From Anaerocolumna aminovalerica (GTDB lineage: Bacteria; Bacillota; Clostridia; Lachnospirales; Lachnospiraceae): a stretch of DNA of 64,000 nucleotides. Below, piece after piece: positions 6,313 through 48,270 of the stretch. Under the pieces are notes generated by a model. That model was given only the letters and a program-made list of their open reading frames with translations. It was not told the DNA's origin and made no database searches. A program made the position numbers and the translations under genes. The stretch spans positions 186,001 through 250,000 of the forward strand of contig NZ_FOWD01000001.1 of the NCBI RefSeq assembly GCF_900115365.1, in the 5' to 3' direction. The first letter of the stretch is position 1; each line of letters opens with the position of its first letter.

Positions 6313-8166
6313 TTGAAACTAAGAGATGCTATTCGTACTATGAAATTTAAAGATAAGAATAAGAACCATCATAAGCTATATACAACTTGGGGAGAGCATT
6401 TGGATCCTGATCATGTTCTGGAGGAGTATCCGAGGCCCCAGCTGAAAAGAGATAATTATACCATCTTAAACGGTTATTGGGATTATTGCATTACTAAAGA
6501 TTCTGCCATGCCTGAACATTACGATTGTAAAATATTAGTACCCTTTTCACCTGAAAGTATGCTATCTGAAGTTAATAAGCAATTAATGCCGGAAGAATTC
6601 CTGTGGTATAAAAGAAAGATAACGATTGATACGTTACCTGATAATAAAAGGTGCATTTTGCATTTTGGAGCAGTGGATCAATTCTGTGAAGTATATTTTA
6701 ATAACAAAAAGGTTAAAGAACATATGGGGGGCTATCTTCCATTTTCTATTGATCTTACCGAGGAAATTGAAAAGGGTGAAAATATTCTTATTCTAAAGGT
6801 AGCTGATGATAGCGATACCTCTTATCACAGCAGAGGAAAACAGAAATTAGACCGGGGAGGTATGTTTTATACTGCTCAAAGTGGAATTTGGCAGACTGTT
6901 TGGATGGAATGGGTTCCAAAGATATATATTGAATCAATAAAGATTACGCCCCTGGTGCTGCAAAGTGCAGTAGAAGTAAATATACTGATAAATAATAGCA
7001 ATACTTTAGATTTACATAAAAAGGATGATAATTCTTCCAATAGAAATTCTGATAGTATGATTTCTGGAGAGATAGAGTGCATAGAGTTTCACATTGATGT
7101 TTATGCCAAAGGAACTTTAATAATATCTGAGTCCAGTGAATATCCAAATGTAGTTATTCCTATGAGCAACTTTGAATATTGGAGCCCGGAGAATCCTTTC
7201 TTATATGATGTGGTTATTACAGCAGGGGAAGACCGGGTTGAGACCTATTTTGCAATGAGGATAATAGAGATAAAGATGGATAGTGAAGGCATCCCCAGAA
7301 TCTATCTTAACCATAAGCCATATTTTCAAAATGGTATTTTAGATCAGGGATACTGGCCTGATGGCTTATATACTGCCCCTAGTGATGAAGCACTTATTTT
7401 TGATATTCTAAAAACAAAAGAACTGGGCTTTAACATGATACGTAAACACATTAAGATAGAACCTCTTCGCTGGTATTACCACTGTGACCGCTTAGGTATT
7501 CTTGTGTGGCAGGATATGGTTAATGGTGGAGAAAAATACAATGAATTAATAGTTGGCTATCTTCCCACTTTATTCCCCAGTTCTGCTAAGCTGCTAAAAG
7601 ATAAGCATTACCGGTTATTTGGAAGGAAAAATGAAGAAGGACGAAAGGAATGGTTGAAAGAATGTGAAGATACAGTAAACCATCTATACAATTCTCCATC
7701 TATTGTAGTTTGGGTTCCATTTAACGAAGCCTGGGGACAATTTGATGCAAAAAAAATATATGCCAGATTGAAAGAAATGGATAAAACCAGACTTGTTGAC
7801 CATGCAAGCGGTTGGTATGATCAGAAATGCGGAGATTTTAAAAGTATACATAATTATTTTCATAAACTAAAAATAAAAAGTGAAAAACGGCCCACTGTAT
7901 TATCCGAATTCGGTGGCTTTGCCTGTTATATTAAAGAACATTCTTATTCCTGGAAAATCTACGGATACCGCATCTATATGAATGAGGAAGATTTAAATAA
8001 GGATTTTCAAAAGATGTTTGCACAGGATATTGCAGAACTTAAGAAGAAAGGATTATGTGCTGCAGTATATACACAACTTTCTGATGTGGAGGATGAGGTA
8101 AACGGATTATTCACTTATGACCGTAAAATATGTAAAGTAAAGCCTTTAATGAATATTATTAGATAA
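6313..8166 (+). CDS. Glycoside hydrolase family 2 protein
   Basis: 617 aa with GH2 architecture: N-terminal jelly-roll sugar-binding domain (about 45-220, with GGYLPFSIDLT and SGIWQTVWMEWVP), an immunoglobulin-like sandwich (about 220-320) and a TIM barrel. The acid/base is Glu472 in FNEAWGQFD and the nucleophile probably Glu532 in LSEFGGFA. There is no signal peptide, so it should act in the cytosol on imported oligosaccharides. Specificity within the GH2 beta-galactosidase/glucuronidase/mannosidase group cannot be set from the sequence. The start is TTG 6313, with AGGAAGG upstream at proper spacing. The gene stands alone. Confidence 0.85.
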   Translation: MKLRDAIRTMKFKDKNKNHHKLYTTWGEHLDPDHVLEEYPRPQLKRDNYTILNGYWDYCITKDSAMPEHYDCKILVPFSPESMLSEVNKQLMPEEFLWYKRKITIDTLPDNKRCILHFGAVDQFCEVYFNNKKVKEHMGGYLPFSIDLTEEIEKGENILILKVADDSDTSYHSRGKQKLDRGGMFYTAQSGIWQTVWMEWVPKIYIESIKITPLVLQSAVEVNILINNSNTLDLHKKDDNSSNRNSDSMISGEIECIEFHIDVYAKGTLIISESSEYPNVVIPMSNFEYWSPENPFLYDVVITAGEDRVETYFAMRIIEIKMDSEGIPRIYLNHKPYFQNGILDQGYWPDGLYTAPSDEALIFDILKTKELGFNMIRKHIKIEPLRWYYHCDRLGILVWQDMVNGGEKYNELIVGYLPTLFPSSAKLLKDKHYRLFGRKNEEGRKEWLKECEDTVNHLYNSPSIVVWVPFNEAWGQFDAKKIYARLKEMDKTRLVDHASGWYDQKCGDFKSIHNYFHKLKIKSEKRPTVLSEFGGFACYIKEHSYSWKIYGYRIYMNEEDLNKDFQKMFAQDIAELKKKGLCAAVYTQLSDVEDEVNGLFTYDRKICKVKPLMNIIR

Positions 8167-13850: not shown

Positions 13851-13930
13851 AACAATCTTAATGATGAAAGCCTATATCTTACTTTGCATAGTAATTTAAG
13901 ATATAGGCTTTCATCATTAAATTGTTTTTT
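13851..13930 (+). terminator. Long-stem terminator
   Basis: The left arm AACAATCTTAATGATGAAAG (13851-13870) continues into CCTATATCTTA. The matching right arm is TAAGATATAGG continuing through CTTTCATCATTAAATTGTT, then TTTT. The stem of about 30 bp is unusually long. Confidence 0.85.
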
Positions 13931-35995: not shown

Positions 35996-37420
35996 ATGAC
36001 AAATTTAGAATTAGCAAAAAAACTTGTTGAACTTGTTGGTGGTAAAGAAAATGTTGATAAAGCCACAAACTGTATGACAAGGCTACGTTTAACAGTTAAG
36101 AATGCCGACCTTGTAAAAGGAGAGGAAATCAAGAACACAGAGGGTGTTATGGGCTATATTGTGGATGGTAATTCTCTTCAGATTGTATTAGGGCCAGGTA
36201 AAGCCAAAAAAGTTGCTGATATTTGTACTGATGAATTAGGGCTTCCGAAGGTAAAAATGGTAACTGAAGATTGGAAAGAAAATAAGACTGCAATGAAGGA
36301 TGTACAAAAGCAAAGTCCATTTAAAAAGGCAATTAGGACAATTGCAGACATTTTCATTCCATTAATTCCGGCGATTATTGCAGCAGGTCTGTTCAATGGT
36401 CTTGCCAGTTTAATCAGCACCCTGCAAGGTCAAGGAGTACTAAGTACAGAAGGATTCTGGCAGGTAGTACAGCTATTATTTGCTCTGATCGGCGGCGGAT
36501 TCTTAGGTTACTTTGCAATTTATACCGGTATTAATTCTGCAAAACAGTTTGGTGCAACAGAAGCACTAGGCGGTATGATTGGTGCAATCTCTATCGGAAG
36601 TAATATTGTTGCCATATCTACAATATTTGGCCTGTACAATGAAGAAGTTCCGCTAAGTTCTATTCTTACAACAGGTAAAGGCGGTATTATAGGTGTTATC
36701 GTAGGAGTATGGATTCTATCAAAAGTAGAAAAATTTGTTAGAAAACATGTTCCAGATGTATTAGACTTAATTGTTACACCTTTTGTATCATTATTAATTA
36801 CAGCAATCTTATTTATATTTATTATTATGCCATTAGCAGGTTTTGCATCAGATGGATTAGTAGCAGCACTTAGTGTAATTATTAATTCTTCTAACCCTGT
36901 TGTTAGTGTAATTAGCGGTTATATATTATCAGCAGTCTTTCTTCCAATGGTTTTACTTGGATTGCATCATGGATTAATACCAATCTATGCGATTCAATTA
37001 GAAACTTTAGGCGGTGTTACATTATTCCCTGTTTTAGCAATGGCAGGAGCTGGTCAGGTTGGTGCGTCATTAGCAATCTATCTAAAAGCAAAACGTATTG
37101 GAAACAAGCGTATACAAAAAGTAATTGCTGGTGCCCTTCCAGCAGGATTCCTTGGAGTAGGTGAGCCTTTAATCTACGGTGTAACTCTACCTATGTTTAA
37201 ACCATTTATTACTGCAGGTCTAGGTGCAGGATTTGGTGGAGCATTTGTAATGTTAACACATGTTATGGCAAGTTCCTGGGGCCCATCCGGATTAGTAGCT
37301 ATTCCAATTATGAAACCGGAAAGCATGCTTAACTTCTTCTTAGGCTTACTGATATCCTATATAGCAGGTTTTATAATAACTTACTTTGTAATTAAAGATA
37401 AGGAAGTTGCAAATGTTTAA
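35996..37420 (+). CDS. murP: PTS EIIBC component, MurNAc-type
   Basis: 474 aa. The EIIB domain (1-85) has the phosphocysteine motif ATNCMTRLR with Cys26; the EIIC domain (about 110-470) has ten or so hydrophobic segments and GLHHGLIPIYAIQ and GVGEPLIYGVTLP. It lacks EIIA, as in MurP of E. coli and staphylococci, which uses a shared EIIA. Its place between murQ and a MupG gene supports uptake and phosphorylation of MurNAc or a MurNAc disaccharide. ATG 35996 follows AGGAGGAGG. Confidence 0.9.
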   Translation: MTNLELAKKLVELVGGKENVDKATNCMTRLRLTVKNADLVKGEEIKNTEGVMGYIVDGNSLQIVLGPGKAKKVADICTDELGLPKVKMVTEDWKENKTAMKDVQKQSPFKKAIRTIADIFIPLIPAIIAAGLFNGLASLISTLQGQGVLSTEGFWQVVQLLFALIGGGFLGYFAIYTGINSAKQFGATEALGGMIGAISIGSNIVAISTIFGLYNEEVPLSSILTTGKGGIIGVIVGVWILSKVEKFVRKHVPDVLDLIVTPFVSLLITAILFIFIIMPLAGFASDGLVAALSVIINSSNPVVSVISGYILSAVFLPMVLLGLHHGLIPIYAIQLETLGGVTLFPVLAMAGAGQVGASLAIYLKAKRIGNKRIQKVIAGALPAGFLGVGEPLIYGVTLPMFKPFITAGLGAGFGGAFVMLTHVMASSWGPSGLVAIPIMKPESMLNFFLGLLISYIAGFIITYFVIKDKEVANV

Positions 37421-38456
37421 TACAATCGGATATTCTGTATATTTATCAACTTTTGAAGAACAAAAAGCAAAATTGGAGTCCATATTTAAAGAAGGTAATT
37501 ATATTTTTACTTCCCTGCATATGAGTGAAGAATATGATACTACCTATATTCAAAGAGTCAAAGAGATGTGTTCTTTTTTAACCACCTGTGGATATAAGAT
37601 AATTGCAGATGTCTCAAGAAATACTTTGAAAGTGTTTAAAACGGATTCCCTTATAGATTTAGCAAAGCTGTTAGGTATATCTATACTAAGAATTGATTAC
37701 GGATTCTCAGAGGATGAAATATTTGAGTTGGCGAAAGAATTTCCTATATGTATTAATGCTTCAACGGTTAATTCTGATTTTATAGATACACTGGCATCAC
37801 ATTCCTTTAATGTATATGCAATGCATAATTTTTATCCAAGACCGGAAACAGGATTGGATATAGAACAATTTCAACTTAGAAATGATACATTGAAGAGTAA
37901 GGGATTTAAAGTTCTTGCATTCATTCCCGGAGATGAAGTTAAAAGAGGCCCGATACATGAAGGCTTACCGACGTTGGAGTCTCATAGAAATGCATCTCCC
38001 TACTCAGCATTTATTGATCTGTTATCCTATGGTGTTGATGGTATTTTTATTGGTGATGGATTAATCAGTCAATTTCAGGCGGATATGATATCACAGTATT
38101 TGGAATCTGATATTTATGCTATACCGGCGATATTTGAGGAAGAATATGAATATCTGTTTAATCAAGTATTTACCATAAGAGCAGATTCACCTCGCTGGTT
38201 GAAACGTTTACAGGAATCAAGAGAATATGCCTGCAAGGGAGCAGAGATTTTACCGGAACATTGCAGGGAAAGAATACCTGGCTCCATAACCATTGACAAT
38301 TATCGCTACCAAAGATATTCCGGTGAGATTCAAATTATTGTAGAATCACTTCCGGCAGATGAGAGAGTAAATGTTATTGGTCAGGTGCCTAAAGAATATC
38401 ATCTTTTGTTAAATCATATTGTGAATGGTTCTAAGATAAGATTTGTGAAACTTTAG
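37413..38456 (+). CDS. mupG: DUF871 protein, 6-phospho-N-acetylmuramidase MupG-like
   Basis: 347 aa with a TIM-barrel DUF871 fold (GYSVYLSTFEEQKA; YAMHNFYPRPETGL; FIPGDEVKRGPIHEGLPTLE). In Staphylococcus aureus the DUF871 protein MupG splits MurNAc6P-GlcNAc in the cytosol and is encoded beside murQ, murP and murR, as here. The gene overlaps murP by 8 nt from ATG 37413, so the pair is translationally coupled. A TTG at 37407 is the alternative start. The full set turns peptidoglycan disaccharides into GlcNAc-6P. Confidence 0.87.
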   Translation: MFNTIGYSVYLSTFEEQKAKLESIFKEGNYIFTSLHMSEEYDTTYIQRVKEMCSFLTTCGYKIIADVSRNTLKVFKTDSLIDLAKLLGISILRIDYGFSEDEIFELAKEFPICINASTVNSDFIDTLASHSFNVYAMHNFYPRPETGLDIEQFQLRNDTLKSKGFKVLAFIPGDEVKRGPIHEGLPTLESHRNASPYSAFIDLLSYGVDGIFIGDGLISQFQADMISQYLESDIYAIPAIFEEEYEYLFNQVFTIRADSPRWLKRLQESREYACKGAEILPEHCRERIPGSITIDNYRYQRYSGEIQIIVESLPADERVNVIGQVPKEYHLLLNHIVNGSKIRFVKL

Positions 38457-38470
38457 AACTATAATTTAGT

Positions 38471-38711
38471 AGGACGCTTTGCCTGAAGTTTGTTGGAAAT
38501 CAGAAAGTGCTCATTAAAGCTTTCATAATGACTCAATTTATATGTTCAAGGATAACAGGGTGTATATTATAAATTTTGCTACCTTACCCTGTCGGCCGGA
38601 TTACGCAAAATTTATAATATACACCCTGTTATCCTAATTTAGTTTAAGAGAGTCATTACGAAAGCTCAATGAGTACTTTCTGAGTTTAATTTATGTTGTG
38701 AAGCAAAGCTG
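38471..38711. repeat. Nested palindromic element, copy A
   Basis: About 240 bp starting 14 bp after the mupG stop. The core is a perfect 31-bp inverted repeat (38549-38579 / 38605-38635) beginning AGGATAACAGGGTGTAT, with a 25-nt loop. Flanking arms CAGAAAGTGCTCATT...ATGACTC and GAGTCATTA...TACTTTCTGAG form an outer imperfect stem, and GCTTTGC/GCAAAGC lie at the edges. The element is non-coding. Copy B (39087-39331) is the same element in opposite orientation. Confidence 0.9.
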
Positions 38712-39086
38712 TTTATGAAATAATTTTAATTTTCATCAATCAAGTTCAAATATATTAATTATACTTAAGGAAATAAATTCTCTGTCAGACAATAACTATT
38801 ATTCTTTCCATACAAAAGGTTCTCATCTCATATTATCTGTTTTAATACCTTTAAAAAATTCTATATCTATGTACATAAGTATTAAATATCTATTCAAAAA
38901 GAATTAAAAGCCTTTTCGAAACCTCCAAAGTTCAATTTATACATTGAGGTAAAGTTGTGTTTTGAAACTTATAACAATTCATTTAGTATACCCATTATAT
39001 AGCAACATAAAATAATATCATGAATTAGTATGTACATTTTATTTATCCTAAGATATATACTAGTTTGTAAAATAATCGGTAGTAGC

Positions 39087-39331
39087 AGCTTTGCTGACAA
39101 CATAAATTGAACTCAGAAAGTGCTTAATAAGCTTTCGTAATGACTCTCATAAAACTTTAAATTAGGATAACAGGGTGTATAGGATTAATTTTGCGTAATC
39201 CGGCCGACAGGGTAAGGTAGCAAAATTAATCCTATACACCCTGTTATCCTTGAACAATATAAATGGAGTCATTATAAAGCTTAATAAAGCACTTTCTGAG
39301 TTTTCAACAAACTACAGAGCAAAGCGCCTCT
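39087..39331. repeat. Nested palindromic element, copy B (inverted)
   Basis: Inverted copy of the element at 38471-38711. It has a perfect 31-bp core stem (39164-39194 / 39220-39250) around the same 25-nt loop and ends at the stop codon of the lyxose isomerase gene. Compared with copy A, the central seven stem bases read AGGATTA instead of ATTATAA, and the opposite arm carries the complementary changes. The 375 bp between the two copies are AT-rich and without genes. Confidence 0.9.
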
Positions 39332-40013
39332 ATTGGGGGCACTTAGGATATTCCGTACATAACAACCGGTAAGCCGGTTCGTCTTCTTCGATGGTAGGGA
39401 AGCGGCCTATTTCTTCATAAAAACGGTTATCCGTAGTATCATCATTGCACATAGACACTTCTCCAATTAGTACATCACCGGTTCCCGGTTTTATATCAAA
39501 ATCATGATACTGGTGAGGCCAAAGAGTAATACTTTCACCGGGCTTTAATTCCACACCGGTTCCTGCTTTTACATAATAAGAACGGCCGTCAGAATTAACT
39601 AGAACATCGGAATCGTCAAAGGTACCATCTCCTTTATCATTGTAAAGATGAATAATTAAAGTTCCGCCGCCCCGATTAATAATATCCTCGCTTTTATTCC
39701 AATGGAAATGCATAGGGGAATGTTGGCCTTCTTTTAACATTAACAATTTTTCTGCATATACTTTTTTGTATTTTGGATTATTTTGATTGCCGTTTCGAAG
39801 AGTGATCAGTGCAAAACCTACTTTTTCAAAATCTCCCAAACCATAGTCTGTAATGTCCCAACCCAGCATGTTGTCACGAATCTCATCGTATTCTTCATTC
39901 TTATTTTTCCATTCTTCTGGAGTCCAGTTGCAGAATGGGGGCAGCTCAAATCCGTGTTTCTTTATTAAACTTTCCATTTCTTTAATTGCTTTATTTACTT
40001 CTGAACGTTTCAT
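39330..40013 (-). CDS. D-lyxose ketol-isomerase
   Basis: 227 aa cupin-fold enzyme of the YdaE/D-lyxose isomerase family. Metal-binding residues are seen in SPMHFHWNKSEDI and LWPHQYHDFD. The family interconverts D-lyxose and D-xylulose and also D-mannose and D-fructose. Start ATG 40013 sits 5 nt after GAGG at the end of the shared leader element. The sugar kinase gene lies in a divergent unit nearby, suggesting use of fructose or xylulose formed here. Confidence 0.9.
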   Translation of the reverse strand: MKRSEVNKAIKEMESLIKKHGFELPPFCNWTPEEWKNKNEEYDEIRDNMLGWDITDYGLGDFEKVGFALITLRNGNQNNPKYKKVYAEKLLMLKEGQHSPMHFHWNKSEDIINRGGGTLIIHLYNDKGDGTFDDSDVLVNSDGRSYYVKAGTGVELKPGESITLWPHQYHDFDIKPGTGDVLIGEVSMCNDDTTDNRFYEEIGRFPTIEEDEPAYRLLCTEYPKCPQ

Positions 40014-48115: not shown

Positions 48116-48182
48116 TACTTTTCCTCCTAATGTAAATTTGACTTTATTTAATGTATATACGTACTGGATATACAATCAGGCA

Positions 48183-48234
48183 TATTATATCACATAAGTG
48201 TATCTGTAAAAAGATACACTTATGTGATATAATA
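48183..48234. promoter_or_regulatory. 23-bp perfect palindrome, divergent promoter/operator
   Basis: Left arm 48183-48205 and right arm 48212-48234 are perfectly complementary, with a 6-nt centre; the half-site contains AGATACACTTATGTGATATA. TGATATAAT in the right arm (hexamer 48228-48233) makes an extended -10 for the MocR gene, and symmetry puts an equal one on the other strand for the flavoprotein gene. A further TACACTTTATTATAA half-site lies at 48240-48254. A MocR dimer probably binds here. Confidence 0.7.
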
Positions 48235-48270
48235 TAGGGTACACTTTATTATAAGGATGGTAATAATTCT

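Follow-up and report, generated by a model that had tools for sequence, protein, structure and literature searches.

A family of mobile hairpin elements with a conserved fold probably accounts for two facing nested palindromes between convergent genes

In the window, by which we mean the whole 64-kb stretch of DNA analyzed here, two nested palindromes face each other between the ends of two genes, and their stems differ from one another yet stay paired. What kind of element keeps its pairing while its letters change? Covariation is commonly taken to signal a functional RNA, and here it runs through an element that appears to be mobile, across several genera. We consider it probable that the palindromes belong to a family of small, non-coding, non-autonomous mobile hairpin elements whose structure is conserved, and, as part of the same explanation, that the window holds a composite member in which a pair of inverted units has merged with a spacer. 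The features of the locus, in window coordinates, are as follows.

37407 to 38456, plus strand: flanking gene of 349 aa with no NCBIfam match; its stop codon lies 4 nt before the terminal AT motif
38461 to 39329, no strand assigned: whole composite (half A, spacer, inverted half B), with ends compared; recurs nearly whole in the same genome at C59:31836-32711 (91% identity) and C59:100986-101874 (85%)
38472 to 38711, plus strand: half A, a nested hairpin from GGACGCTTTGC to GCAAAGCTG (inverted repeats, folding against shuffles)
38549 to 38579, plus strand: half A inner stem, 5′ arm, 31 bp, perfect (inverted-repeat scan)
38580 to 38604, plus strand: half A loop, 25 nt, a shortened head (compared among short loops)
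38605 to 38635, plus strand: half A inner stem, 3′ arm (inverted-repeat scan)
38712 to 39085, no strand assigned: AT-rich spacer in which no ORF reaches 80 aa
39086 to 39328, minus strand: half B, the same hairpin in inverse orientation (inverted repeats)
39164 to 39194, minus strand: half B inner stem, 3′ arm on the minus strand (inverted-repeat scan)
39195 to 39219, minus strand: half B loop, 25 nt (compared among short loops)
39220 to 39250, minus strand: half B inner stem, 5′ arm on the minus strand (inverted-repeat scan)
39330 to 40013, minus strand: flanking convergent gene of 227 aa, D-lyxose/D-mannose isomerase-like (262 bits, under the curated 350; profile coverage reaching 225 of 227), with its stop codon directly against the element

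Locating the inverted repeats of the window confirmed the preliminary description in its main lines: the two nested palindromes are inverted and face each other, the 31-bp inner stem is perfect in both, the 25-nt loops are identical once the second is read on the minus strand, and outer imperfect palindromes surround them (arms at about 38497-38534/38650-38686 and 39110-39146/39266-39302). That description had seven central stem bases differing between the copies; ATTATAA and AGGATTA in fact differ at only three of seven, and all three differences are compensated on the opposite arm, so that the 31-bp arms of the two hairpins are 90% identical to each other. Outside the outer palindromes there is a short closing stem, GACGCTTTGC/GCAAAGC, and a closing motif similar to that of half A is present in another genus (G150). 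With loops limited to 3-60 nt, the inner stems are the two longest perfect inverted repeats in the 64 kb, the next being 24 bp, and half A folds far better than its own shuffles (z −13.4; 0 of 200 shuffles as good). The palindromes are the two halves of a single repeated composite of ∼860 bp, made of a hairpin, an AT-rich spacer of ∼370 bp and an inverted hairpin, in which the motif GGACGC stands 15 nt past the stop codon of the left gene. We saw no encoded protein in the hairpin elements. Two more perfect palindromes of 24 bp occur in the window, at 48182-48235 and 13858-13920, with loops of 6 and 15 nt.

The composite is one of many related units in its own genome. A search of that genome with the window element, in which 40 of 106 candidates were scored, gave at least 99 matches that we merged by eye into 31 places, and a longer-headed copy used as query added one on contig C32, for about 32 places, a count made uncertain by the many copies at contig ends. 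With the copies in relatives described below, this disposes of the notion that no other copies exist anywhere. We read 32 hairpins, 30 from the window genome and 2 from G013, which belongs to the same genus. Counting two closing pairs, the loop measures 29 nt in 20 of the 32, 48 nt in 2, 57 nt in 1 and 119-126 nt in 9; 18 of the 20 short loops are identical and the other 2 are off by one base. The stems vary among copies yet remain paired: in 28 of the 32 hairpins (2 being cut by contig ends and 2 carrying indels), the arms within one hairpin differ at 31 of 812 bp (3.8%), compared with a 20.7% difference between copies, and in the copy on C32 (L084) both inner and outer stems are largely different with pairing intact. 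A fold kept while its paired letters change offers a way to ask what purpose the shape serves. What we take to be an IS3-like insertion lies within the composite spacer of L012 (about 6590-7270), L013, L017 and L022. At three other loci (L014:280-312, L020:5143-5170 and L034:296-316) the end of another insertion abuts the hairpin base, as if aimed at palindromes; that end is TAGTGTCCTTAAGTTGACGACAT in L014 and L020, and L034 has a shorter common part. The stem at window positions 38549-38562, like that of other copies, reads ATAACAGGGT and has ten letters in common with the I-SceI site, presumably by chance.

We then followed the fold through related genomes with two covariance models. The first (R1), built on 9 sequences of the long-headed type, matched 9 of 61 genomes, namely 8 of 15 from the window's genus and 1 of 46 others. 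The second (R2), built on 24 matches, matched 6 of 392 genomes of Lachnospirales: the window genome, G150 (same family, other genus), G062, G079 and G092 (two further families) and G398, whose match we rejected by eye as a GC-rich palindromic repeat lacking the conserved letters. Between them, the two models detect the fold in 8 of the 15 genomes from the genus and in 4 more that represent three further genera, so that three families of Lachnospirales are included altogether. In samples of the class (1 of 391) and of the phylum (1 of 299) the sole match was the window genome itself, an absence that is weak with 6-8 candidates scored per genome; copy numbers and absences from all the wide covariance searches are weak in the same way, few candidates per genome having been scored. 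An exact 19-letter core pattern retrieved one stretch that matches the G013 hit in contig number and position, along with 9 others that look like chance. The repeated unit stops at the hairpin in most genomes compared; in G079 (L169, L170 and L172) a unit of ∼500 bp is repeated, comprising the hairpin and ∼300 bp downstream. G004 holds extra fragments resembling the head or the terminal stem apart from its main copies (L134:1475-1554 and L139:6283-6421). In the literature covered, which includes few subscription journals, we recognized no paper describing this hairpin family.

The basic unit is a single hairpin of about 230-340 bp, which consists of a closing or terminal stem, an asymmetric unpaired loop, an inner stem of ∼30 bp and a strongly conserved basal part, topped in most copies seen by a branched head of ∼125 nt. 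The nearly invariant letters form the basal part of the head, TnCCTTnCCnTC on one side and TCnGnCGGnC on the other, some of them unpaired and some within two short helices. Both-side changes occur at 53 of 64 pairs in 24 sequences, and 91.0% of cells are paired in 24 rows, compared with 70.7% after shuffling and 33-43% after sliding; the alignments (A3 and A4) were fitted to the model structure, which inflates these pair counts, and their cells are not independent events. In A4, 9 of 51 rows duplicate hairpins already present, picked up on the opposite strand; these were excluded from the reading of invariant letters and from the wobble count described below and included in one covariation count. 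The fold is also visible directly in unaligned sequences. The compensatory stem change first noticed between the two window hairpins is, by these both-side changes, strongly supported across species.

Perfect stems could also arise by correction of one arm from the other, as the preliminary description had suggested, since template switching has been proposed both to create and to mend stems (excerpts of PMC8794818). Such correction may add to the pairing; it cannot be the whole story, because the branched head and the unpaired, asymmetric loops persist instead of being closed into perfect stems. The same evidence bears on the idea of an ordinary MITE, a decayed insertion sequence with an incidental palindromic interior whose stems are perfect by template-switch correction only. 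Inverted-repeat ends, AT-rich target duplications of 6-7 bp and the lack of coding capacity would all suit it, as would the proposed making and mending of stems. However, the basal part and head are conserved across genera although the ends differ, and mere correction would close the asymmetric loops and favor neither strand, so that we regard this explanation as unlikely. Of the head itself, only the basal part is left in the window genome and in 4 of 5 G092 hits, apparently after separate losses in the two; the head appears dispensable, the basal part not.

The question of which strand is folded can be approached through wobble pairs, since one strand was aligned throughout and A-C on the aligned strand is G-U on its complement. 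At 50 of the 64 pairs (leaving out pairs whose other mismatches exceed 5% and a single invariant G-U pair), A-C cells number 78 vs. 30 for G-U, or 47 vs. 27 as genome-column cases, so that the wobble excess lies on the complement; it appears in 10 of 11 genomes, with one tie, although cells of this kind are few (78 of about 2,000). In agreement with this, the complement of the matched core is the more stable as RNA in 72 of 77 hairpins, and the outer stems show the same bias (42 vs. 26 cases; 63 of 77 hairpins). Against the complement stands one head pair for which every one of the 42 rows has G-U on the aligned strand, and in a cruder count the inner stems agree (36 vs. 20) and the outer mismatches, unpaired loops included, go the opposite way (172 vs. 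73). In the composite, the favored strands run outward from the spacer. G-T is the milder mismatch in DNA as well, so the wobble bias indicates polarity and does not separate RNA from DNA. The target of selection seems to be a folded single strand, RNA or DNA, whose polarity is that of the complement; together with the conserved asymmetric loops, the strand bias argues that selection, beyond correction alone, keeps the shape. The family therefore offers a natural case in which to separate selection on RNA, selection on a DNA hairpin and template-switch repair.

If the selected strand were RNA, the complement would be transcribed, and the head and stems would form a functional RNA or a protein-bound leader that is only incidentally multicopy and mobile. 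The strand-specific wobble and folding energy are what such an RNA would produce, the branched head has letters that are nearly invariant across three families, and the complement of the copies in G007, G003 and some of G004 and G150 would, by eye, fall in the leader of the next gene. Set against this are the persistence of the element despite the apparent double loss of its head, the rarity of the wobble cells and the placement in G005, where the next gene is on the other side. Promoter-like sites in and around the window element are not in excess over shuffles (7 vs. a shuffle mean of 5.6). A search of 12 loci and stretches against Rfam 15 gave nothing above the gathering score; the sub-threshold models were mostly microRNA precursors, which fit any long stem, and some stretches had no match, so we rejected a known RNA. 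We hold a structured RNA to be possible though not likely. The strand bias fits an RNA or a recognized single-stranded DNA hairpin, and for the mobile hairpin family that we prefer, we would expect the folded strand to be recognized by the machinery that moves it.

Evidence for movement, which the preliminary description had put forward as one of several possibilities, comes from the many copies and above all from near-identical copies with target duplications in G010. This genome, in one contig, holds 9 full copies that are 97-100% identical to one of them, besides 2 truncated copies, 4 with a deleted interior and 1 lone end. Among copies with both ends, 9 of 13 have a flush duplication of 6-7 bp, compared with 4 of 156 mismatched flank pairings; the other 4 have 0-4 bp flush, and the insertion sites are AT-rich. 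The interior-deleted forms (L184, L185, L186 and L187) are 92-96 bp long; their interior was apparently lost by deletion between short direct repeats (TATTCATT), and flush duplications of 6-7 bp border three of them. A copy in G007 has an 11-bp repeat adjoining its ends, and another copy one of 12 bp by eye. The termini differ by lineage, being of the GACGCTTTGCC, GTCAAAAGCC or GAAAAAGTCCC type, with two types each in G150 and G013 (by eye). Comparing the ends of the window-genome composites revealed no target duplication, and mobility in that genome rests therefore on copy number.

What moves the elements may be an enzyme acting in trans. We found no transposase with ends matching the hairpin element, nothing around the fetched copies that would make a larger, protein-coding and autonomous version, and no element-specific family among the 606 neighboring ORFs compared, the largest clusters of which were, by look, ATPases, response regulators and permeases, a cluster of 4 being the spacer insertion. 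A Y1/RAYT transposase as the only mobilizer was rejected, PF01797 being without a match in the element-carrying genomes G003, G005, G007 and G010; Y1 matches do exist in the window genome and in G013. We likewise rejected a phage, plasmid or viral connection, having found no match for one G010 copy against plasmids, for one window-genome copy against phages, or for one exact pattern against viral contigs; the first two of these results also bear on the role in replication or packaging put forward in the preliminary description. The family points to a mobilizing system in Lachnospirales still to be found. As we picture it, copies would move into AT-rich DNA, as they did in G010, under an enzyme supplied in trans, one folded strand would be recognized and kept under selection, and the paired changes may come from template switching or from copying or conversion between sister elements. 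A narrower version, in which the folded strand of one polarity would define a class of mobile element and a transposase or recombinase would recognize the hairpin together with its invariant unpaired letters, so that the stems and even the repeats at the ends could be exchanged completely provided that they pair, we find doubtful, because the strand bias would suit an RNA equally.

Known repeats share some of these traits. Like prokaryotic MITEs and stem-loop repeats, the elements are short, non-coding, intergenic, AT-rich and strongly folding with terminal inverted repeats, and, in G010, flanked by target duplications (excerpts of PMC2267715 and PMC10969869). Unlike MITEs, they keep one fold with nearly invariant letters over several genera as stems and ends are replaced, and no parent insertion sequence was found around the fetched copies. 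REPs and REPINs are also hairpins, often inverted neighbors, downstream of genes or between convergent genes; REPs measure 20-40 bp with GTAG or CGTC tags, and RAYT recognizes single-stranded REP DNA (excerpts of PMC3733652). The units described here are set apart by their length of 230-340 bp and by their presence in four genomes without a Y1 match, so that the family resembles a MITE or stem-loop repeat, behaves like REPs in its placement and fails the REP definition. A third comparison is with the attC sites of integrons, which keep structure over sequence, are folded and recognized on one strand and lie right after a stop codon. These sites are shorter than the present hairpin units, which, unlike attC, are flanked by ordinary and often convergent genes.

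Placement at stop codons is indeed frequent in the window genome, where the composite termini carry a conserved AATAAAAATTTRG. We considered 38 of 42 outer ends, excluding 3 that abut another insertion and 1 second element, recognized the terminus by AAATTT or hand-picked variants, and required an ORF of at least 100 aa ending nearby; at 18 of the 22 ends measurable in this way the stop codon lies −2 to +8 nt from the terminus, often as AAA-TAA-AAATTT. Two further ends (the right ends of the window element and of L019) have an ORF and an unrecognized terminus and are flush by eye, and 14 of the 38 have no nearby ORF of at least 100 aa. Of 15 element-containing gaps called automatically, 8 are convergent, 4 codirectional and 3 divergent, some distorted by the ORFs of inserted elements; 19 element-free convergent gaps have a median of 185 bp, with ORFs of at least 120 aa called automatically and small genes missed. 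Four of ten flanking proteins (isomerase, AdhE, lactaldehyde reductase and depolymerase) come within four positions of the end of their NCBIfam profile, 3 have no NCBIfam match and 3 a partial or distant one. For 10 of 11 orthologues the end of ArgH agrees to within about two residues, and downstream of argH in relatives a stem-loop lies 13-66 nt past the stop in at least 5 of 11 (by eye). No empty site of the same locus was seen, and the window isomerase gave no readable one in relatives. From the flush placement it seems that elements of this kind are able to rewrite 3′ ends at many genes of one genome.

One might then read the hairpins as two-way terminators at gene 3′ ends, spread by recombination rather than transposition, as would suit the flush stop codons and the long stable hairpins between convergent genes of the window genome. 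This we consider quite improbable. The copies in G010, G007 and G003 sit near gene starts or in tandem repeats and have target duplications, the conserved head is needless for termination, and our terminator scan, which counts only loops of 3-8 nt, gives the role no support, finding no terminator-like site inside the window element. For the composite as a mobile member of the hairpin family, a different course is conceivable, namely that it acts in place of the native terminator from both sides. The insertion sequence IS1272 provides a parallel, as it replaces a stem-loop without target duplication and was downstream of genes in two of three new cases (excerpts of PMC5678879). In the window-genome copies no duplication is visible and the stop codons are flush, and by analogy a replacement of this type would explain the latter; however, IS1272 encodes its own transposase (same excerpts), whereas the hairpin units contain none, and the G010 copies make duplications. 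The stop-codon habit belongs to the composite, since the copies of other species, judged by eye, are found close to gene starts, past terminators or within tandem repeats. Those of G007 (L117-L120) and G003 (L131-L133) precede gene starts by roughly 30-70 bp, and by eye the gene is always on the same side, so that a regulatory effect is possible.
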